Source of the DNA: Kitasatospora gansuensis
Lineage (GTDB): Bacteria; Actinomycetota; Actinomycetes; Streptomycetales; Streptomycetaceae
DNA: 64,000 nt
Assembly (NCBI RefSeq): GCF_014203705.1
Contig: NZ_JACHJR010000001.1
Coordinates: 1,302,001-1,366,000, forward strand
Direction of reading: 5' to 3'
The notes under the pieces were generated by a model, which saw only the letters and a list, made by a program, of their open reading frames with translations, searched no databases and was not told where the DNA came from. Shown one piece after another: positions 2,501 through 32,413 of the stretch; the stretch's first letter is position 1, and the number at the start of each line of letters is the position of its first letter. Position numbers and translations under genes: made by a program.

Positions 2501-2641
2501 GAGGGCCGGGGCGTTGCCGGTGAGGCCGGTGACGGAGACCCGGGACTCGACGGTGGTGTTGTCGTTGACGGCGTAGCCAGCGGTGGCGTTCCAGTTGTCC
2601 GGGGTTTTCTGGGTGCTCCCGGCACTTCCGGGCCCGTTGCT
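2501..2641 (-). pseudogene. Possible relic of a protease P-domain coding region
   Basis: The gap between two convergent genes reads without a stop on the minus strand as a Ser/Thr/Asn-rich stretch containing NDNTTVESRVSVTGLTGNAP. This resembles the first strands of the P/homo-B domain at the C-terminus of secreted actinobacterial proteases, usually spelled DN-TVES-I-VSG-TGNAP. The expected continuation (HTY-GDLVVDL) is missing; the frame runs into the antisense of the phosphatase gene. There is no start codon or ribosome site. I read it as a decayed fragment of a lost exoprotease gene, seen only by eye. Confidence 0.35.
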
Positions 2642-3386
2642 AGAGCCCGTGCCGCACCCAGACGGTCGGCTCGACGTAGACGGCGTAGCCGCCCGCCAGG
2701 TCGCAGCGCACCGGAGCGAGCGCGCCCGGCACCAGCACCTCCCCGGTCGCGTCGAACGGGAGTCCGGTCCACTCCCGCCACTGCGCCGGTGACCCGGAGA
2801 TCGTCATCGACGCGGGGGCCACCTTCTCGATCGTCGCCCCGGCCCGGACGTGGACCCGCAGCCAGGGGTCGTACGGCAGCCCGCCCTGCTCGCGGACCCG
2901 GAAGGCGTACTCCTGCATCGACGCCTCCGGCTCGAGGTGCTTGCCACTCGGCCGGACCGGCGCGACGACCTCCGCGAACCCCCGCTCCCGGGCGGCGTCC
3001 CGCATCGCGCCGAGCATCAGACCGGAGAGCCCGCGCCCCTGGAGCTCGGGGTGCACCGCGATCTCGATCGCGCTGACCGTGTCGGGCGTCTCCCCGTACC
3101 GTCGGTCGGTGACGGCCCAGAGCAGCACCTCGTCCCAGCCCCGGTCGGGCAGCCGCCCCTGCCGCTTGGCAAAGCTGAACGGGACGCTGTGCCCACGCGC
3201 CACGAGTACACCGTCGGCGTCCGTGGCCACCACCACGTGCTCCGGGAACTCCTCGGCGATCAGTCCCACCAGGGCGTTGGCCACCAGGTCGTGGTCCATG
3301 AACGCGGGCCAGCTGTGCGGCATCTCCCACAGGGCCGACCGCAGCTCGGGCCGCTCGGCGAGGGTGGTCACGGTCAGGTTCTCCAT
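2640..3386 (-). CDS. GNAT family N-acetyltransferase
   Basis: This is a 248-residue acetyltransferase of the GNAT superfamily. The acetyl-CoA site shows as IAVHPELQGRGLSGLMLGAM (about residues 125-144), with the canonical Q-G-R-G pyrophosphate loop, followed by a helix with DAARERGF. The C-terminal half, including PYDPWLRVHVRAGA, is typical of a longer GNAT subgroup common in streptomycetes. I chose the ATG at 3384-3386, giving MENLTVTTL; an in-frame ATG 36 nt upstream (3422) is possible, and neither has a strong ribosome site. The substrate cannot be told. Confidence 0.82.
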   Translation of the reverse strand: MENLTVTTLAERPELRSALWEMPHSWPAFMDHDLVANALVGLIAEEFPEHVVVATDADGVLVARGHSVPFSFAKRQGRLPDRGWDEVLLWAVTDRRYGETPDTVSAIEIAVHPELQGRGLSGLMLGAMRDAARERGFAEVVAPVRPSGKHLEPEASMQEYAFRVREQGGLPYDPWLRVHVRAGATIEKVAPASMTISGSPAQWREWTGLPFDATGEVLVPGALAPVRCDLAGGYAVYVEPTVWVRHGL

Positions 3387-3442
3387 ACCGCGCACCCTAG
3401 GGCTCCGACCTGCGAAGATCATCTGATTTTCAGCGCCTGTCC

Positions 3443-3916
3443 CTACCCGCGGCGGACCTCGTGCATGAAGCAGCCGTACTCGACCGCCCGGACGTGCAGG
3501 ACGGCCACCTCGGGGTCGGCGAGCAGCTCGGCCGCGCCGGCGGCGGCCTCGGCGGGCTGGACCAGGCGGCCGCCCAGGATGCGCCCACCGGAGTCGTACG
3601 CGCGCAGCACCCGGGGGCCGGTGTGCATGGTGCCGGGCCAGCCTTCGGCCGGGCCGACGCAGGGGGTGGCGTGGATGAAGACCGGGCCGCGCTCGTCGTA
3701 CGGGCCGGGGTCGGCCCCGGTCTCGGCGGCCCAGCGGGCGAGCGGGGCGTACGAGACCAGGGCGATCCGGTCGCCGGGGCAGGCCCGGGTGAGGCAGCAG
3801 CGCAGCGGGGCGCCGCCGGTGGTGTCGACCGACTCGACCGGTGGGCGGCCCGCGTCGTCCAGCTCGCGGAGGCGGGCGCAGGTGGCGGGGTCGATGGGGT
3901 TGATCTGCAGGTTCAT
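3443..3916 (-). CDS. DUF1203 family protein
   Basis: This is a 157-residue protein matching the DUF1203 pattern. It has an early CCL.RACPGDRIALVSYAPL-type segment (about residues 40-58), then a GPVFIHATPC motif and a VRAVEYGCFMHEVRRG ending. The conserved Cys and His residues suggest a small enzyme or metal-binding protein, but no activity is established for the family as far as I know. The start MNLQIN is chosen because family members begin with a short strand at this place. It stands alone between two unrelated minus-strand genes. Confidence 0.75.
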   Translation of the reverse strand: MNLQINPIDPATCARLRELDDAGRPPVESVDTTGGAPLRCCLTRACPGDRIALVSYAPLARWAAETGADPGPYDERGPVFIHATPCVGPAEGWPGTMHTGPRVLRAYDSGGRILGGRLVQPAEAAAGAAELLADPEVAVLHVRAVEYGCFMHEVRRG

Positions 3917-4631: not shown

Positions 4632-4841
4632 TCACCCTAGCGGTCGGACCTTCTCCGCCACCGGCCGGTCCTCCTGGACGGTCGCCTCGTACTCGACCTT
4701 CTGCCCGTCGGGCAGCGCCCGGTCCACGCCCTCGATCAGGATCGAGTCGTAGTAGAAGGTCAGTTCGGGCCCGCCGCCGTCGGGGGCGATCGTCCCGTAC
4801 CCGTGATCGGCGTGGAAGGTCTGCACGGTACCGGTGGCCAT
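4632..4841 (-). CDS. Divergent cold-shock-domain protein
   Basis: This is a 69-residue OB-fold protein of cold-shock size. It begins MATGTVQTFHADHGYGTIAP, which matches the strand-1/RNP1 region (GYGTI for the usual GFGFI). The RNP2-like strand reads LTFYYDSI instead of VFVHFS, so the usual nucleic-acid-binding aromatics are partly replaced. The start at 4841 follows a GAGGAG ribosome site; an upstream in-frame start would add 16 residues that the family lacks. It ends 6 nt from the exporter start. It probably binds RNA or single-stranded DNA, but the divergent motifs leave room for another role. Confidence 0.78.
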   Translation of the reverse strand: MATGTVQTFHADHGYGTIAPDGGGPELTFYYDSILIEGVDRALPDGQKVEYEATVQEDRPVAEKVRPLG

Positions 4842-9722: not shown

Positions 9723-10487
9723 TCAGACCGCCATCGCCAGCATCAACGGCGCCGCCCGCTCGGCCAGCAGCTCGGCGGCCGCCCGCAGCCGGTGCACCTG
9801 GCCGACCGGCAGCGAGGTGGCCAGGCAGCCCACCGTGCTGCCGGCCGAGACCGGGACCGCCGCGCAGACGGTGCCGAGCGCGTACTCCTGGATGTCCAGC
9901 ACCGGCACCGTGGCGGGCTGGCACTCAAGACGGTGCATCAGCTGCTGCTGGTCGGTGATGGTGCGGGCGGTCAGCCGGGCCACCGGGTGCCGGGCGAGGT
10001 GGTCCCGCCGGCCGTCGTGGTCGAGCTGGCTGAGCAGGCACTTGCCGATCGCGGTGGCGTGCGCGGTGACCCGGAAGTCGACCCACTCGCGGACCGCCGG
10101 GGCGTGCTCGGCGGCCGAGACCGCCTCGACCGTCAACTCGCCGTCGTGGTACCGGGTGAAGTAGACCGCCGCGCCCAGCTCGTCCCGCAGCTCGGCCAGC
10201 CGGTGCTCCATCCGGGACCGCACCAGCTGCTCCCGGTTCTGCTGGCCGAGCACCGAGAACGCCCCGCCGAGCACCCAGAGCCCGTCCTCCAGCGCGAGGT
10301 AGCCCTCCAGCTCCAGCGCCTCGGCCAGCTCCCGGACCACCACCGCGGGCAGCCCGAGCTCCCGGGCCAGCACCGCCTCCGGCACCCCGCCTGGGTGCCG
10401 GTCCACCGTCTCCAGCACCCGCAGGGCCCGCCGCATCACCCCGAACGGCCCGGCCGAGACCGAAGCCCCCTGTCCCCGTACCGACAT
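9723..10487 (-). CDS. IclR family transcriptional regulator
   Basis: This 254-residue regulator has an N-terminal winged helix (about residues 18-75: RALRVLETVDRHPGGVPEAVLARELGLP). The C-terminal effector domain carries the IclR signatures AHATAIGKCLLSQL and a late CAAVPVSAGSTVGCLATS. The start at 10487 has GGGGA upstream and avoids a 15-residue extension with no homologous look. It may control the metal-dependent hydrolase and the reductase/M24/SDR genes downstream on the same strand, or the catalase upstream; neither is shown. A 12-bp palindrome 87 bp before its start could be its operator. Confidence 0.87.
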   Translation of the reverse strand: MSVRGQGASVSAGPFGVMRRALRVLETVDRHPGGVPEAVLARELGLPAVVVRELAEALELEGYLALEDGLWVLGGAFSVLGQQNREQLVRSRMEHRLAELRDELGAAVYFTRYHDGELTVEAVSAAEHAPAVREWVDFRVTAHATAIGKCLLSQLDHDGRRDHLARHPVARLTARTITDQQQLMHRLECQPATVPVLDIQEYALGTVCAAVPVSAGSTVGCLATSLPVGQVHRLRAAAELLAERAAPLMLAMAV

Positions 10488-10573
10488 GGCGTCCCCTTCC
10501 CCGTCCCTGTCAATCACATCCAGCGTAGCCACCCGGACGCCCGCGCACGGGCCCGCGTCGACACCTGGTCAGT

Positions 10574-17489: not shown

Positions 17490-18323
17490 TCAGCCGGCGC
17501 GGTACTCGCGCGGGAGCCACTCGAAGCTGTCGGCGCTGACGCCGTTCGCCGGGCGGTACTCGAGGCCGATCCGGCCGGTGTAGCCGGCCGCGACCAGGCG
17601 GGCGAAGAGGTCCTCGAAGTCCAGCTCGCCGGTGCCGGGCTCGTTGCGGGCCGGGGTGTCGGCGATCTGCACGTGGCCGATCTTGTCGGCGTGGGCGGCG
17701 ATCACGGCCGCCAGGTCCTCGCCGTTGCGGGCCAGGTGGTACAGGTCGCAGAGGAACTTCGCGTTGCCCAGGCCGGTGGCCTCGTTCACCTTGTCGACGA
17801 CCGCGATCGCGGCCTCGGCGGTGACCAGCGCGTAGTCCGGGGACTCGGCCTTGTTGAGGGTCTCGATCAGCAGCACGGCGCCGATCGAGTGCGCGGCCCG
17901 CGCGGCGAGCGTGAGGTTCTCCAGCGCGAGCTCGTCCTGCTCGGCGGCGCTGACGCCCTCCACCCGGTTGCCGTAGAGCGCGTTGAGCGCCCTGGTGCCG
18001 AGCGACTCGGCGAGCGCCACGGTGACCGGGATGTTCTCCCGGAACCGCTCGCTCTCGGCCGGTACGGAGAGGGTGCCGCGGGCGCCCTTGGTCAGGTCGT
18101 CCAGGAAGTTCAGGCCGGTGAGCTGGACGCCCGCGTCGGTGAAGGCCTTGCGGAGCGCGTCCTGCTCGGCGTCCGAGGGGGTGTGGTTCTCCCCGAACGG
18201 CCACCACAGCTCGGCGGCGGTGAAGCCGGCGGCCGCGGCGGCGGCGGGGCGCTCCAGGAGCGGGAGCTCGCTGAACAGGATCGACAGGTTGACCGTGTAG
18301 CTGAGCTTGGAAGCGGCAGTCAC
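17490..18323 (-). CDS. hyi: Hydroxypyruvate isomerase (TIM barrel)
   Basis: This 277-residue xylose-isomerase-like TIM barrel interconverts hydroxypyruvate and tartronate semialdehyde. Family segments are YTVNLSILFSELPLLERP near the start, AELWWPFGE, LIETLNKAESPDYAL, FLCDLYHLARNGED and IGHVQIADTPARNEPGTGE with likely metal-binding Glu, Asp and His. I choose GTG 18321-18323, eight bases after AAAGG; the GTG nine bases earlier overlaps that ribosome site. It leads the hyi-glxR pair and is divergent from the thiamine-binding protein gene, with a shared palindrome between them. Confidence 0.92.
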   Translation of the reverse strand: MTAASKLSYTVNLSILFSELPLLERPAAAAAAGFTAAELWWPFGENHTPSDAEQDALRKAFTDAGVQLTGLNFLDDLTKGARGTLSVPAESERFRENIPVTVALAESLGTRALNALYGNRVEGVSAAEQDELALENLTLAARAAHSIGAVLLIETLNKAESPDYALVTAEAAIAVVDKVNEATGLGNAKFLCDLYHLARNGEDLAAVIAAHADKIGHVQIADTPARNEPGTGELDFEDLFARLVAAGYTGRIGLEYRPANGVSADSFEWLPREYRAG

Positions 18324-18356
18324 GTCAATCACCTTTCACTCTTCCGAAACATCCTA

Positions 18357-18373
18357 CTTCCACGATCCGGAAG
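18357..18373. promoter_or_regulatory. CTTCC-n7-GGAAG inverted repeat upstream of hyi
   Basis: Perfect 5-bp arms around 7 nt lie 34 bp upstream of the hyi start. Placed between the hyi start and the AllR-like palindrome, it may be part of the promoter or a second regulator's site. No copy was found at the other purine promoters. Confidence 0.3.
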
Positions 18374-18429
18374 AGGGATTCTGCTTGGTGGAAGCATGCC
18401 CCGCGATCCGAGAGACCGTCAAGACCGCC

Positions 18430-18444
18430 GCAACAATTTGTTGA
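18430..18444. promoter_or_regulatory. Candidate AllR-like operator, hyi/thiamine-protein site
   Basis: GCAACAATTTGTTGA contains the perfect palindrome CAACAA-T-TTGTTG. It matches the uraD site in 12 of 15 positions. It lies 107 bp upstream of hyi and 60 bp upstream of the divergent thiamine-binding protein gene, so it could control both. Confidence 0.6.
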
Positions 18445-18503
18445 AGCTCGCTTGCCTCGGGCCGACCCCTTCCCCCTCCACCCCTGATCGCTACAGTGAG
18501 CAG

Positions 18504-18773
18504 GTGCGATTGAAGGTGGAGTTCACAACAGAGCCGTTCGAGCTGGACACGTTCCCGGACCACGCGGTGGCCGCCCGGCAGGCGGTGGACGAGGCCGGCC
18601 TGGCCGTCACCGTCGGGCCGTTCGGCACCGAGGCCGAGGGCCAGGGCGACCAGGTGCTCGCGGCCGTGACCAGGCTGCTGCGGCAGAGCCTGGACGCCGG
18701 AGCGACCCAGATCTCCCTGCAGGTCACCCTGCTGGACAACGACAAGACCCCGGAAGGAGTGGGTACCCCATGA
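18504..18773 (+). CDS. Thiamine-binding protein, MTH1187/YkoF-like
   Basis: This 89-residue protein matches the MTH1187 family (PF01910), a ferredoxin-like fold that binds thiamine or its derivatives. Characteristic parts are the first strand KVEFTTEPF, the helix ARQAVDEAGLAVTVGPFGTEAEG, and LDAGATQISLQVTLLD. It starts at GTG 18504 and overlaps the next gene by 4 nt. Its position opposite hyi suggests a link to glyoxylate carboligase, a thiamine-diphosphate enzyme needed to make tartronate semialdehyde; that link is my inference. Confidence 0.78.
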   Translation: MRLKVEFTTEPFELDTFPDHAVAARQAVDEAGLAVTVGPFGTEAEGQGDQVLAAVTRLLRQSLDAGATQISLQVTLLDNDKTPEGVGTP

Positions 18774-19150
18774 GCGACGCCCTGGAGCACCCGCTCGCTG
18801 CGGCGATAAAGCCGCTGCTTGAGGCCGTCGGCGCGACCCAGGTCGCGGTCGGCGAGGCCCGCCCCGACGACGTGGTGCTGGAGTGGGACGGCCAGGCCGC
18901 GGTCGCCGTCCGGCTCCCGCACCTGAGCAGTGCCCTGGACCGCCTGCTGGCCGAGATGACCCGTCAGTTCGACGGCCGCCCGCTGACCGAGCTGGACCGC
19001 TGGGAGAAGCAGCGCGTGGTCGCCCTCCTGGAGGAGCGCGGCGCGTTCACCGTGCGGCACGGCGTGGAGACGGTGGCCTCCGCACTCGGCGTCAGCCGGT
19101 TCACGGTGTACAACTACCTGAACCGGCAGGACGGCACGAAGACCGGCTGA
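18770..19150 (+). CDS. Small helix-turn-helix protein with C-terminal Fis-like HTH
   Basis: This is a 126-residue protein with an N-terminal region (about residues 1-75) of unknown fold and a C-terminal Fis-like helix-turn-helix. The segment LEERGAFTVRHGVETVASALGVSRFTVYNYLNR resembles the Fis/PucR/NtrC-type DNA-binding helices. It overlaps the thiamine-binding gene by 4 nt, so the two are made together. The N-terminus (LEHPLAAAIKPLLEAVGA, then LEWDGQAAVAVRLP) may sense a ligand. Homologues are annotated only as helix-turn-helix proteins. A regulator working with the small-molecule binder next door is plausible. Confidence 0.75.
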   Translation: MSDALEHPLAAAIKPLLEAVGATQVAVGEARPDDVVLEWDGQAAVAVRLPHLSSALDRLLAEMTRQFDGRPLTELDRWEKQRVVALLEERGAFTVRHGVETVASALGVSRFTVYNYLNRQDGTKTG

Positions 19151-19248
19151 GGCCAGTCTGTCCGACCCGACGGGCCGGGCACACTTGGCTGATCGCACAC
19201 CAAAAGGGCTGGTCACAGGCCCTGACTCAAAACGTAACCACCAACAGT

Positions 19249-19263
19249 TCAACAAAGTGTTGA
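19249..19263. promoter_or_regulatory. Candidate AllR-like operator, uraD site
   Basis: TCAACAAAGTGTTGA is an inverted repeat with perfect TCAAC/GTTGA arms. It differs by one base from the reverse complement of the aceB/allR site. It lies 60 bp upstream of the uraD start, overlapping the likely promoter. Confidence 0.65.
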
Positions 19264-19322
19264 CGCCCGGGGGTGGCGGATCTAGCTTTTGCGGGTGGCA
19301 CCACTCTTCAGGAGGTCCACCC

Positions 19323-19826
19323 GTGACCAACCTTCCCACCACTCCTGACGCTCTCTCGGCGATCCCCGCCGGCGAGCTGACGGAGACACTGCTGGAGATC
19401 TGCTCCAGCCCCAGCTGGGCCGCCGCTGTCGCGGAGACCCGGCCCTGGTCCGACCGGGCCGAGCTGTTGGCCGCCAACGAGGCGGCGATGGCGAAGCTGA
19501 CGGTCGAGGACCTCGCCGACGCGATGGCCGGCCACGCCCGGATCGGCAAGCCCAAGGCGGGCGACGCCACCTCCGAGCGCGAGCAGGCCGGCATCCAGGG
19601 AGTCGACTCCGCACTCCTGGACGAGCTGCACGAGGCGAACGCCGCCTACGAGGCGAAGTTCGGCCACGTGTTCCTGATCTGCGCCACCGGCCGCACGGCC
19701 GGCACCATGCTCGCCGCGCTGCGCGAGCGCTTCCCCAATGACGCCGCCACCGAGGCGGAAATCGTCCGGGGCGAGCTGCGCAAGATCAACGACATCCGTA
19801 TCAACCGACTGTTCGACGCGGCCTGA
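19323..19826 (+). CDS. uraD: OHCU decarboxylase
   Basis: This 167-residue enzyme decarboxylates 2-oxo-4-hydroxy-4-carboxy-5-ureidoimidazoline to S-allantoin. The catalytic His lies in AMAGHARIGKPK, followed by the family's EREQAGI segment and the C-terminal RGELRKINDIRINRL helix. The start is GTG 19323, seven bases after an ideal AGGAGG; upstream in-frame codons carry no homology. It heads the uraD-uraH-pucL operon and has the strongest copy of the proposed AllR operator in its promoter. Confidence 0.95.
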   Translation: MTNLPTTPDALSAIPAGELTETLLEICSSPSWAAAVAETRPWSDRAELLAANEAAMAKLTVEDLADAMAGHARIGKPKAGDATSEREQAGIQGVDSALLDELHEANAAYEAKFGHVFLICATGRTAGTMLAALRERFPNDAATEAEIVRGELRKINDIRINRLFDAA

Positions 19827-24427: not shown

Positions 24428-24515
24428 TCACCTGTCCTGACTGCCAAAGCCGTTGACAACTCCCTTGCGCTGGCCGAAGGTTCGATCACCGGCGGGCGTC
24501 AGGGGGCGGTTTTCG

Positions 24516-26834
24516 GTGACGGTGCATCAGGCGGGTCAGGACCACGCGGGCGACTACGACTACCCGACCGACGTGGACGGCAGCGGCGTCACCGAACTGG
24601 TGGTGCACGGCTGGGGCGGTTCGGGTCCGGCCGAGGTGCTGGACGATCCCGAGGTGCGGCAGGTGGCGGGCAGCAAACTGGCCGGGATCTGGCGGGGCCG
24701 GGACGCCCGGCCGTCCGGGCGGCACCGGGAGGCGTACTTCTGGGGCGGGCTGACCTCGCGGTCGTGGGCGACCGCGCTGTGGTTCCTGCTGCTGCCGTTC
24801 GCGTTCGTCAACATGGCGGGCTGGATGGCCCTGGGCACCCGGAGCCAGGTGCGGTTCCAGCAGGCCATGGTGCGGGTGATGGCGTTCTGCGTGACCGCGA
24901 CCTACCTGCTCTTCCTCACCCAGGTGTTCGTGGACCAGGCCGCCTGGCAGTGCCTGGCCGTCACCAACTGCCGGGCCCAGCCGTTCTGGCACGCGCTGCG
25001 GATGCAGGACCGGCCGTACCTGGCCGCCGCGCTGGCCGCGCTCGTCCCGGCCCTGATCGTGCTGCTGCTGCACCTGGGCACCAGCCCGAACCGCCGCTGG
25101 GAGGCGGCCGTCGGGGGCCGGCGCGGTTCCTACGACCTCTCCCAGGCCAAGCTGGTCGACGCCGACTTCTGGCAGGACGGCTCCGGGTACGCCACCCAGG
25201 ACCGGGCGCTGCACACCGCCGGTGCCTGGACGCTGCTCGCGCTGGTCCTGCTGCGCGCCGCCACCACCGGCGGCCGGGCGTCAACCGTCGTGCTCTGTAC
25301 GGAAGTTCTCCTGACGGCCGGTCTGGCGGTGCTCGCCTGCGCCGGGCTGGTGGACCGACTGCGGGCCGCCCTGGCCGGCAGCCGGCTGGCCCGCCGGCTC
25401 CTCTGCGGCGGCTCGGGCACGCTGCTGGTGCTGGCCGGGGTGCTGTGCGCCGTCCAGCCGAGCTCCCGGCGGAGCGGCGCGGTCGGGGTGAGCCGGGTCG
25501 GGATCGGCATGCCGGACCTGCTGGACACCTTCAACCTGCTGCTGGGCGTGCTGTATTCGGCCGGCGTGCTGATGCTGCTGGTCGCCTGGTGGGCCAAGCG
25601 CGACACCCGCCAGCACGGCCTGCCGCGGCTGCCGCCCGCCTTCTCCACCGTGACGGTGGGCAGCGGGCTGCTGTTCGCGATCTGGTCGGGGGTGGCGCTC
25701 TCCGCCGCGCACTGGCTGAGCCCGCCCGCCAAGGACGCGCCGACCGGCGAGGTGACGCAGGTGCAGATCCTGCCCGGCTCCGAGGCGCTGGCCCGGTTCA
25801 GCATCGACGGCATGCTGGTGCTGCTGCTCTGGTTCGGCGCGGTCTGGCTCTGGCACCGCAGCGACTGGCGGGACGACCTCGACCGCGAGCTGACCCGCTG
25901 GCGGCAGCAGGCCGCGGCGGCCGGGCGGTCCGCGGACCTGGACCTGGACCTCACCGATCCGGAGCCCCACCCGGACAGTCCGGCCGGGGTCTGGCTGGCC
26001 ATGGTGCGACGGCGCCGGATGATCGGCTCGCTGCTGCTGCGCTGGCTGGAGGGCGGGCTCTCCGGGGCGGCGGTGCTGCTGGCCGGTGCCGCGATCGGGT
26101 TCAGCTGCTCGTACCTGCTGGAGTGGATCAAGGGCCCCAAGCCGGACGTGAACCAGATCTGGTCCGCCGTCCCCGCTCCCAGCGCCACGGTGGCCGGGAC
26201 CATCCTGCTGCTCGGCCCGCTGGCTCTGCTGCTGCTGGTGCGCAACGCACTGGCCGACCCGAGCACCCGTCGGCTGACCGCGATCGTCTGGGACATCGCC
26301 ACCTTCTGGCCGCGCTCGTTCCACCCCTACGCGCCGCCCAGCTACGCCGAGCAGGCGGTGCCCCAACTCGCCGAGCGGGTACGGAACCTGACCGACCGGG
26401 GCGGCGCGGTGATCCTGCTCGGGCACAGCCAGGGCGCGGTGATCGTCACCGCCACCGTCGCCCAACTGGCCGCCACCGCACCGCAGTCGGCCCCGCTGCT
26501 GTCGGTGGTCACGTACGGGAACCCGGTGCCCCCGCTGTACCGCCGGTGGTTCCCGACCTACCTGCACGCCCCGCTGCCCGAGGGCTGCCCCACCGTCGCC
26601 TGGGTCAACTTCCACCGCACCACCGACCCCTTCGGCGGCCAGGAACTGGGCGAGGAGACCGTCACCGACCGCTGGCTGGCCGACCCGCCCACCGCCCTGC
26701 GCCAGCCCGGCAGCGAGCGCCCGGTGATCCGCGGCCACCACCACCGGGGCTACGTCCGCCAGTCGGAGTTCGCCACCCACCTGGAGAACGAGACGGTCCG
26801 ACTGGCCGGGCCGAATCCGCCTGCCGCCCCCTGA
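24516..26834 (+). CDS. Large membrane protein with a split alpha/beta-hydrolase core
   Basis: This is a 772-residue integral membrane protein. Near the N-terminus LVVHGWGGSGPAEVLDDPEV resembles the oxyanion strand of a serine hydrolase. About ten hydrophobic helices follow across the middle. The C-terminal 200 residues hold a lipase-like elbow GHSQGAV (about residue 640), a likely Asp (HRTTDPFGG) and His residues (GHHHRG). Family members in actinomycetes are annotated as hypothetical or alpha/beta hydrolase membrane proteins. The start at GTG 24516 follows AGGGGG; an upstream TTG would add 21 residues. The function is unknown; membrane lipid hydrolysis is a guess. Confidence 0.72.
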   Translation: MTVHQAGQDHAGDYDYPTDVDGSGVTELVVHGWGGSGPAEVLDDPEVRQVAGSKLAGIWRGRDARPSGRHREAYFWGGLTSRSWATALWFLLLPFAFVNMAGWMALGTRSQVRFQQAMVRVMAFCVTATYLLFLTQVFVDQAAWQCLAVTNCRAQPFWHALRMQDRPYLAAALAALVPALIVLLLHLGTSPNRRWEAAVGGRRGSYDLSQAKLVDADFWQDGSGYATQDRALHTAGAWTLLALVLLRAATTGGRASTVVLCTEVLLTAGLAVLACAGLVDRLRAALAGSRLARRLLCGGSGTLLVLAGVLCAVQPSSRRSGAVGVSRVGIGMPDLLDTFNLLLGVLYSAGVLMLLVAWWAKRDTRQHGLPRLPPAFSTVTVGSGLLFAIWSGVALSAAHWLSPPAKDAPTGEVTQVQILPGSEALARFSIDGMLVLLLWFGAVWLWHRSDWRDDLDRELTRWRQQAAAAGRSADLDLDLTDPEPHPDSPAGVWLAMVRRRRMIGSLLLRWLEGGLSGAAVLLAGAAIGFSCSYLLEWIKGPKPDVNQIWSAVPAPSATVAGTILLLGPLALLLLVRNALADPSTRRLTAIVWDIATFWPRSFHPYAPPSYAEQAVPQLAERVRNLTDRGGAVILLGHSQGAVIVTATVAQLAATAPQSAPLLSVVTYGNPVPPLYRRWFPTYLHAPLPEGCPTVAWVNFHRTTDPFGGQELGEETVTDRWLADPPTALRQPGSERPVIRGHHHRGYVRQSEFATHLENETVRLAGPNPPAAP

Positions 26835-29062: not shown

Positions 29063-29186
29063 GGCAGAACACTCCTTGGACAGTTGAGCCAACAGGGAAA
29101 TTCCGGTGGGAACTTCCTCGATACCGACCCGCCTACTGGCGGGTTCGGTTCTGTAAGGTGGAGACTAGTTTCCGCGATACAGAATT

Positions 29187-29201
29187 TCAACGCTTTGTTG
29201 A
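29187..29201. promoter_or_regulatory. Candidate AllR-like operator, aceB/allR site
   Basis: TCAACGCTTTGTTGA has perfect TCAAC/GTTGA arms and, read on the minus strand, differs from the uraD site by one base. It lies 124 bp upstream of aceB and 49 bp upstream of the regulator start, so it could serve both control and autoregulation. Confidence 0.65.
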
Positions 29202-29250
29202 GGTAGATCGCTGGGACTCTACTCCTCCTCCGACAGCGAAGGGAACGCCG

Positions 29251-30045
29251 GTGGCCAGCACCTCCGCCGCAGCACCCACAGGGGCCGACCGTGCCACCGG
29301 CGGCGTGCAGTCCGTCGAGCGCGCCTTCCAACTCCTCGAAGCCCTGGCCGACTCCGGCGGGGTGGCCACCCTGAGCGAGCTCTCCGCCACCTCCGGGCTG
29401 CCGATGCCGACCATCCACCGGCTGATTCGTACCCTCGTGGCGCAGGGCTATGTCCGCCAGGACACCGCCCGTCGCTACACCCTGGGCCCCCGGCTGATCC
29501 GGCTCGGCGAGACCGCGGGCCGCCTGCTCGGCAGCTGGGCCCGCCCGTACCTGGCCGAGCTGATGGAGGCCACCGGCGAGACCGCCAACCTGGCCGTGCT
29601 GGAGGGCGGCGAGGTGGTGTACGTCGGGCAGGTCCAGTCGCGCCGCTCGATGCGGATGTTCACCGAGGTCGGCCGCCGGGTGCAGCCGCACTGCACCGGA
29701 GTCGGCAAGGCGCTGCTGGCCCAGCTGGACGAGGCCGAGGCGCGCGGCGTGCTCGGCACCCAGCCGCTCCAGTCGCACACCCCGTACACCGTCACCGACC
29801 AGGGCGAGCTGTTCGCCCAGCTGGCCGTGGCCCGCGAGCGCGGCTACGTGGTGGACGACCAGGAGCAGGAGATCGGCGTCCGCTGCATCGCGGTCGCCGT
29901 CCCGGGCGCGCCGACCCCGACCGCGCTCTCGGTCTCCGGCCCCGAGGCCCGGATCCGCGCGCTGGAGGCGCAGGCGGGCAACACCGCGTTGGTCCCCGTG
30001 ATGCGGCAGATCGCGAGCAGGCTCGGCCAGGTACTGGCCCCCTGA
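29251..30045 (+). CDS. allR: IclR family regulator, probably AllR
   Basis: This 264-residue IclR regulator has an N-terminal winged helix (about residues 22-80: VQSVERAFQLLEALAD through GLPMPTIHRLIRTL). The C-terminal effector domain carries NLAVLEGGEVVYVGQVQS, HCTGVGKALLAQL and IGVRCIAVAVPG. I start it at GTG 29251 after AAGGGA; a start at 29158 would place the palindromic operator inside the gene. In Streptomyces coelicolor an IclR protein called AllR represses allantoin genes and lies near aceB and allB. The same setting and shared motif make this the likely equivalent; the ligand would be an allantoin-pathway intermediate. Confidence 0.85.
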   Translation: MASTSAAAPTGADRATGGVQSVERAFQLLEALADSGGVATLSELSATSGLPMPTIHRLIRTLVAQGYVRQDTARRYTLGPRLIRLGETAGRLLGSWARPYLAELMEATGETANLAVLEGGEVVYVGQVQSRRSMRMFTEVGRRVQPHCTGVGKALLAQLDEAEARGVLGTQPLQSHTPYTVTDQGELFAQLAVARERGYVVDDQEQEIGVRCIAVAVPGAPTPTALSVSGPEARIRALEAQAGNTALVPVMRQIASRLGQVLAP

Positions 30046-32121: not shown

Positions 32122-32413
32122 GGGCAGGTCCTCGGCGACGCCTACGAGGTGAGCTGTCGGGTTCGGGCTGGAGGACTGCCCGGCCGCTGTGGGAGCGGCT
32201 TCACCCCGAGCGGGCCCGTACCGGAGCAGGGGGGACCGCAGACTGACCTGGTTCCCCCGCTCCTGCCCATGTTCGGTGATCGAGTACCCGACGCCGGGTG
32301 GGCAGGACTCGGCGTCCCGGCGGCGGGGCCCGCTCAGATGCGGACAACTCCATGCAGGCTAGGCAGGTCGTCCGTCCATCGACAACGAGACCTGTCTCAC
32401 ACGGCCTTCACGA
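32122..32413. other. 292-bp gap upstream of the GH16 gene
   Basis: No gene is visible. It must hold the GH16 promoter; a small inverted repeat GAGAC-CT-GTCTC lies at about 32386-32398, near the end of the lipase-like gene. No strong terminator was seen. Confidence 0.5.

Follow-up and report, generated by a model that had tools for sequence, protein, structure and literature searches.

A DUF77-fold protein and an HTH_22 protein as the probable halves of one regulator of urate and glyoxylate genes in actinobacteria

The two small genes considered here are probably the halves of one transcription regulator, in which a protein of DUF77 fold would be the ligand-sensing half and an HTH_22 protein would bind the palindrome TTCAACA-N3-TGTTGA at promoters of genes leading from urate through glyoxylate and malate to pyruvate. 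Copies of this palindrome stand on both sides of the pair in the window, by which we mean the whole 64,000-nucleotide stretch analyzed, and a uricase operon lies directly downstream of the pair. Neither the operon nor the two palindromes had been mentioned in the sequence-only reading of this DNA, which proposed a two-part sensor joining thiamine status to glyoxylate flux. The features on which the argument turns are the following, by window position and strand.

9723–10532, minus strand: IclR-type regulator
17490–18332, minus strand: hyi (hydroxypyruvate isomerase), divergent from the pair; TIGR03234, E 5e-84, 281.6 bits, under the cut-off of 353
18429–18445, no strand assigned: operator-like palindrome CGCAACAATTTGTTGAA in the divergent intergenic region between hyi and the pair; exact TTCAACANNNTGTTG on the reverse strand (18431–18445), two mismatches to the full palindrome
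18504–18773, plus strand: putative sensor subunit, a DUF77/Thiamine_BP-fold protein of 89 aa with a GTG start; PF01910, fold model and PDB matches
18770–19150, plus strand: predicted DNA-binding subunit, 126 aa; PF13309, 67.5 bits; N-terminal alpha/beta segment (about 1–50) and C-terminal HTH_22
19248–19264, plus strand: operator-like palindrome TTCAACAAAGTGTTGAC upstream of uraD; exact TTCAACANNNTGTTG pattern at 19248–19262, the right arm overlapping the -35 box
19323–19826, plus strand: uraD (OHCU decarboxylase), gene 1 of the predicted target operon; PF09349, TIGR03180
19875–20210, plus strand: uraH (hydroxyisourate hydrolase), gene 2 of the predicted target operon; TIGR02962
20241–21161, plus strand: uricase, gene 3 of the predicted target operon; TIGR03383, 339.6 bits
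27410–29092, minus strand: malate synthase, a predicted target, with its start codon probably at 29063; TIGR01344, 794 bits; palindrome upstream
29158–30045, plus strand: IclR-type regulator, divergent from malate synthase
29186–29202, no strand assigned: operator-like palindrome TTCAACGCTTTGTTGAG between malate synthase and the divergent IclR-type regulator; relaxed scan, ≤2 mismatches

What the sequence-only reading described, a thiamine-binder-type gene paired with a small HTH gene opposite hyi, is real: the product of 18504–18773 passes the cut-off of PF01910 (Thiamine_BP) in the Pfam profile search with 29.6 bits against 24.9, the two genes overlap by 4 bp (18770–18773), and hyi is divergent. 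This protein is the one PF01910 match in the genome, and three of its relatives score 40.9–41.9 bits. The label “MTH1187-type” holds for the Pfam cut-off and the DUF77 fold but does not extend to the stricter NCBIfam model TIGR00106 (“MTH1187 family”), with which the protein scores 19.5 bits against a cut-off of 54.7. Its predicted fold is beta-alpha-beta-beta-alpha-beta (pLDDT 89.8), and Foldseek returned 14 PDB matches to the model at E ≤ 0.001, all of them chains of MTH1187, MJ1052, TM0486, SP2199, YBL001c or the B. cereus DUF77 protein, which we take to be one family. Against 2ibo the model gives Z 10.5 with an rmsd of 2.5 over 80 aligned positions, a Z to within 1 of which shell proteins of the same fold class also come. 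As judged from the model, the DUF77 fold is secure.

The product of 18770–19150 passes the cut-off of HTH_22 (PF13309) with 67.5 bits against 29.6; the genome has three HTH_22 matches, two of which pass that cut-off. Its HTH_22 helix, ...GVSRFTVYNYLN, is near-invariant across 21 rows. A structure search with the whole model (pLDDT 84.5) gave no match at E ≤ 0.001, and structure comparison returned general DNA-binding folds at Z of about 5–6. Of 147 genomes from the order, 131 contain a match to this protein, and the match is strong in 127 of the 132 that belong to the same family, which we take to be the Streptomycetaceae.

The overlap between the two genes is not chance. Among the matches to the HTH protein in the 147 genomes of the order, the 30 best-scoring same-family loci all have the DUF77 gene directly upstream of the HTH gene, with an overlap of 4 bp in 27 and of 1 bp in three. 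When 345 genomes of the class were searched, with 12 first-look candidates scored per genome, 43 had matches; these were members of the same family, three distant genomes with strong matches, and others with weak ones to other HTH_22 proteins. In two of the three distant genomes (G192 and G430), the proteins are fused into single chains of 187 and 174 aa, in which each of the two Pfam domains passes its cut-off. Fusion in relatives is a classical sign of shared function, and a scan with the fused protein as query, covering 84,980 species by a single genome each, yielded 153 relatives, of which the best 80 were kept; both domains share a single reading frame in 76 of these 80 loci and are split in four. 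Overlaps in 30 of 30 loci and fusions in 76 of the best 80 of 153 relatives argue that the two genes make up a single unit, a one-component regulator present here in split form, and they bear out the earlier idea of a two-part sensor insofar as it meant two proteins making one regulator. Genera with the fused form include Amycolatopsis, Prauserella, Kutzneria, Nocardioides, Kribbella and Phycicoccus. Where the two are split, the HTH protein is longer by an N-terminal segment of about 50 residues, absent from the fusions. In a tree of 135 columns only, whose bootstrap is unsettled and several of whose split rows are long, split and fused forms interleave with six changes between them, at least four of which are forced by starred branches.

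The constant neighbors of the regulator are the uricase genes, as uraD, uraH and uricase are each found at 78 of the 80 loci (best 80 of 153 relatives). Directly after the pair comes uraD in 25 of the 30 best-scoring same-family loci; in the other five, it lies 1.6–5 kb downstream. Of the best 80 loci of the 153 relatives, 18 have a DUF6986 aldolase-like gene no more than 8 kb from the regulator, whether fused or split, and five have a glycerate kinase gene nearby. Other neighbors in the window are allantoinase, tartronate semialdehyde reductase, catalase, a xanthine/uracil-family permease, an amidohydrolase and, recognized by its translation, a likely glycerate kinase. The window also holds a c-di-AMP riboswitch (ydaO/yuaA leader; 32124–32288, minus strand, 64.1 bits), its sole Rfam match over threshold, and a 793-aa open reading frame (24453–26834, plus strand) that matches neither a Pfam model at 1e-5 nor an NCBIfam model at 1e-10.

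An exact search of the 8.3-Mb genome finds TTCAACANNNTGTTG four times and the reversed control pattern not at all; one site lies beside the pair, one before uraD, and one each no more than 40 bp ahead of the genes for a DUF6986 aldolase and a malic enzyme. A relaxed scan of the genome (≤2 mismatches) adds the site before malate synthase, and since it gives 23 sites against five for the control, single relaxed matches need caution. In the 30 best-scoring same-family loci, the exact core stands upstream of uraD in all 25 where uraD is adjacent and in all five where it is further off, and a 16-letter pattern was found in 21 of 25 same-family genomes (control, zero). More distantly, the exact palindrome is present at 79 of the best 80 loci of 153 relatives, preceding uraD, uraH or uricase at 78, and four scrambled patterns have no match in the 1.28 Mb of these 80 loci; L077 is without the exact palindrome, and L155 has it with no uricase genes in the stretch examined. 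Sites before the pair itself were found in four genomes, this one and three others. In 29 of 30 same-family loci, the 180 bp preceding the pair hold no site (≤3 mismatches), and autoregulation is therefore not a general feature.

Across 25 same-family genomes, 45 of 49 site entries (duplicates included) fall before uraD, aceB, the DUF6986 gene, maeB, the pair or catalase. The remaining four comprise one less than 100 bp from a moaA-type gene, one less than 100 bp before a pyruvate kinase gene, and two with no assigned gene. Sites before aceB occur in other genomes of the family too. We propose a regulon that would run from urate through allantoin, glyoxylate and malate to pyruvate, with the HTH_22 protein binding the palindrome at the promoters of the uricase operon, malate synthase, malic enzyme and the DUF6986 aldolase and, in some genomes, also before catalase and the pair. 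The regulon may extend to molybdenum cofactor supply and pyruvate metabolism; xanthine dehydrogenase needs the molybdenum cofactor. The moaA-type and pyruvate kinase sites are each seen in a single genome (L233 near 1501 and L250 near 2001, respectively). The neighbors of the DUF6986 aldolase suggest that it is tied to glyoxylate or purine carbon. In L005, such an aldolase-like gene (2575–3867, minus strand, 626 bits) has the palindrome 18 bp upstream.

Which protein, then, reads the palindrome? Thirty-eight uricase loci, hand-picked by family spread from 145 genomes with uricase and searched over 7–11 kb each, have the palindrome in both of the two with the regulator and in none of the 36 without it, even at two mismatches. 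One of these 36 loci comes from a same-family genome (G022), which has uraD, uraH and uricase but neither the regulator nor the palindrome. In the class sample, 31 of 33 same-family genomes have uricase and 30 of these 31 the regulator; two genomes without the regulator are also without uricase. A first palindrome test on 18 PAS_6 regulators found one site with three mismatches (L176) and none closer. The recognition helices of those 18 regulators differ, which, together with a perfect site before a DauR-type regulator of Variovorax paradoxus, led to a test by helix, with L174, which is truncated, left out of the sample. For PAS_6–HTH_22 regulators with the helix R[FY][ST][VI]YNYL, the palindrome (≤2 mismatches) lies upstream in 6 of 10, with 0.015 expected, and in 7 of 10 when L069 is counted by hand, its site (TTCAACACAATGTTGAA) being perfect. 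Where the helix does not match, the palindrome is found in 1 of 30 (expected, 0.035), namely in L198, whose helix is RYTIYNDL. Of the 40 loci, 30 had already been inspected when the helix rule was drawn up; among the 10 added afterward, the palindrome is present in 1 of 1 with a matching helix and in 1 of 9 with another.

Since the palindrome tracks the regulator and HTH_22 proteins with a matching helix carry the site, an HTH_22 protein with a helix of the R[FY][ST][VI]YNYL type is the best candidate reader, and we infer that the pair binds DNA. A recognition code extending to HTH_22 regulators beyond the actinobacteria is possible. Perfect copies of TTCAACA-N3-TGTTGAA stand at two DauR-type regulators, in L192 at 2218–2234, beside genes annotated as aminotransferase and RidA, and in L069 at 4769–4785, beside an amino-acid permease gene recognized by its translation.

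The presence of two IclR-type genes in the region (9723–10532, minus strand, and 29158–30045, plus strand), with a different palindrome, TTCCGCGATACAGAA (29170–29184), directly abutting the site before malate synthase, raises the question of whether the operator belongs to these AllR-like regulators, the pair being an accessory. This is very improbable. A relative of either IclR protein is found at only 12 of the 80 loci, at 79 of which the palindrome is present (best 80 of 153), and no palindrome is found at four uricase loci (L252, L270, L279 and L286) that lack the pair but encode a relative of the 29158 IclR protein (54–60% identity); on these counts, IclR ownership was rejected. The palindrome also accompanies HTH_22 proteins at unrelated loci, and no HTH_IclR or IclR_C domain was found in either protein of the pair (E ≤ 1). 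The E. coli IclR and AllR motifs, given as TGGAAATNATTTCCA and KTTGGAAWAWTWTTCCAAC in PMC8222616, differ from the window palindrome. With the HTH_22 protein kept as the candidate reader, the IclR-type regulator beside malate synthase probably shares these promoters, and the second palindrome possibly gives them an AllR-like second input. This second type of palindrome is seen twice near predicted operators, as TTCCGCGATACAGAA and, before hyi, as the similar TTCCACGATCCGGAA (18358–18372).

The site before uraD coincides with a predicted promoter composed of a -35 box, TTGACG (19260–19265), a spacer of 17 and a -10-like TAGCTT (19283–19288), the right arm of the palindrome, TGTTGAC, containing the -35 box TTGAC. 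TANNNT follows TTG by 17–18 bp at 61 of 79 loci (from the best 80 of 153) and at none with the other spacings from 12 to 23, against two for the control ATNNNT at spacings 17–18 and eight at all spacings in the same 79 loci. The strict TANNNT rule fits one of 29 same-family operators, the window's own (L025 was left out), and the majority element there is TTAGCT at about the same distance. Since the right arm is the -35 box, a regulator bound there should compete with the sigma factor and would repress until the ligand releases it. We lean toward repression over activation on the strength of this arrangement. The same regulator on the same operator might act as an activator in class II position, for which the operator center, at about -40 relative to the predicted promoter, would be suitable, but we take this to be the less probable sign of control, as the arm overlaps a near-consensus -35 (TTGACG) where no help would be needed, and the DauR-type relatives are repressors, DauR itself being the D-arginine repressor.

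What would the regulator sense? No PAS_6 domain (PF08348) was found in the pair (E ≤ 1) or in two fused proteins (E ≤ 0.01), with the same domain being detected in L069, L002 and L192. The DUF77 half occupies the place that PAS_6 has in DauR, which makes it the natural sensor, although the DUF77 protein could modify the neighboring HTH protein without any ligand. If, as we prefer, the DUF77 half senses a ligand, its residues offer some guidance. In the alignment, E6, T8, E10, P11, F12, P18 and H20 are invariant in 48 of 48 rows; at the positions of E10 and H20, the solved relatives aligned carry Ile and Tyr or Val (two and three sequences), and only 21 of the 48 rows keep the Glu that belongs to the E-G motif in the solved DUF77 relatives. 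That E10 and H20 are not common to the solved relatives and that this Glu varies argue, without proof, for a ligand other than thiamine. Because the regulon would comprise urate, allantoin, glyoxylate, malate and pyruvate steps, our best guess, preferred over thiamine, is a purine-breakdown intermediate (urate, its oxidation products or allantoin) or glyoxylate.

Thiamine was at the center of the earlier proposal; in a more specific form framed here, the DUF77 protein would bind thiamine or its pyrimidine part and, as a sensor of thiamine status, steer glyoxylate between the ThDP-dependent glyoxylate carboligase (gcl) and a ThDP-independent route of malate synthase and malic enzyme. The PF01910 score, the DUF77 fold and the place of the ThDP-independent route in the predicted regulon are in keeping with it, as is YkoF of this superfamily, a soluble thiamine-binding protein according to PMC5037267. 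As for gcl, it lies within 8 kb at 21 of the 80 loci (best 80 of 153 relatives), 17 times with hyi and glxR on the strand leading away from the regulator and four times beyond the uric-acid genes, and in 4 of 8 larger stretches around split or fused loci, once at only 37% identity. Glyoxylate carboligase thus accompanies the regulator in a minority, and the uricase genes, at 78 of the same best 80 of 153, are far more constant neighbors. No site with ≤3 mismatches precedes hyi(-glxR-gcl) at the 30 evaluable loci (25 divergent, five co-directional; row L152 not counted). In this genome, gcl is at 5.82 Mb and the pair at 1.32 Mb, 4.5 Mb apart, with no site (≤3 mismatches) in the 4.8 kb around gcl and no relaxed site within 80 kb of it; no TPP riboswitch is over threshold in the window. 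Together with the variable E-G Glu (21 of 48 rows) and the TIGR00106 score below the cut-off, these observations weaken the coupling to thiamine and gcl, which as a reason for the pair is weak so far, and a thiamine-status sensor is in our judgment unlikely.

The link to glyoxylate itself is kept in part. Malate synthase and malic enzyme are preceded by sites, as is the pair in four genomes, but the constant neighbors are uraD, uraH and uricase (78 of the best 80 of 153). Co-occurrence with hyi or gcl, which the sequence-only reading had put forward as a check, likewise extends to some of the loci: hyi lies upstream of the pair in 21 of the 30 best-scoring same-family loci, and within 8 kb at 31 of the best 80 of 153, where gcl is near 21. 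The refuting circumstance named there, a pair lying mostly away from glyoxylate genes, is half borne out by these counts of hyi, malate synthase and malic enzyme for their part carrying the palindrome.

No description of this regulator was found among the open-access papers that the searches listed. SCO6209–6211 are OHCU decarboxylase, hydroxyisourate hydrolase and urate oxidase (PMC4991794), and SCO6208 is entered as “Putative Transposase” in a table for S. coelicolor (PMC3897704). By position beside SCO6209–6211, the pair seems to be SCO6207/SCO6208, the HTH protein being SCO6208. The regulator is real, widely conserved and, it appears, undescribed. Whether it represents a new actinobacterial class of one-component regulators, in which a DUF77 fold would sense a purine-breakdown metabolite and drive HTH_22, in one-chain or overlapping-gene forms with repeated switching between them, seems to us evenly balanced.

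Two orphan genes, the second strongly matched in 127 of 132 same-family genomes, would gain a job in this way, and the DUF77 family, whose purpose has been called unclear even for YkoF, would gain a likely role as a sensor domain. The proposal also offers a predicted control site for the uricase genes of actinobacteria, together with a predicted regulon linking urate breakdown to glyoxylate disposal. Given fused and split forms of one regulator, ligand-to-DNA signaling between separate subunits becomes directly testable.

Among known systems, the DauR/YheO-type regulators (PAS_6 plus HTH_22) have HTH_22 in common with the pair, and in a DauR-type subset the recognition helix is almost identical and this palindrome likewise stands upstream. 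These regulators possess their own PAS_6 sensor, whereas the sensor of the pair is a DUF77 fold, separate here and fused in relatives; since the pair is without PAS_6, the DauR parallel covers DNA binding only. Gene neighbors differ as well, being amino-acid genes at several DauR-type loci and urate and glyoxylate genes at the pair. With the DUF77/MTH1187/YkoF superfamily, the sensor shares the fold, the PF01910 score, the A-E-x-[TS] first strand and the stretch around GPxGTxxEG; it differs in its invariant E10 and H20, its varying E-G Glu, its DNA-binding partner and its TIGR00106 score under the cut-off. The AllR/IclR repressors, responsive to glyoxylate or allantoin, serve the same pathway as the one predicted for the pair but belong to another DNA-binding family with another palindrome, and a relative of either IclR protein of the window is found at only 12 of the 80 loci (best 80 of 153). 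The DNA-binding half of the regulator is of a known kind, and its sensor domain, its split and fused forms and its predicted regulon are, as far as we have searched, new in combination.
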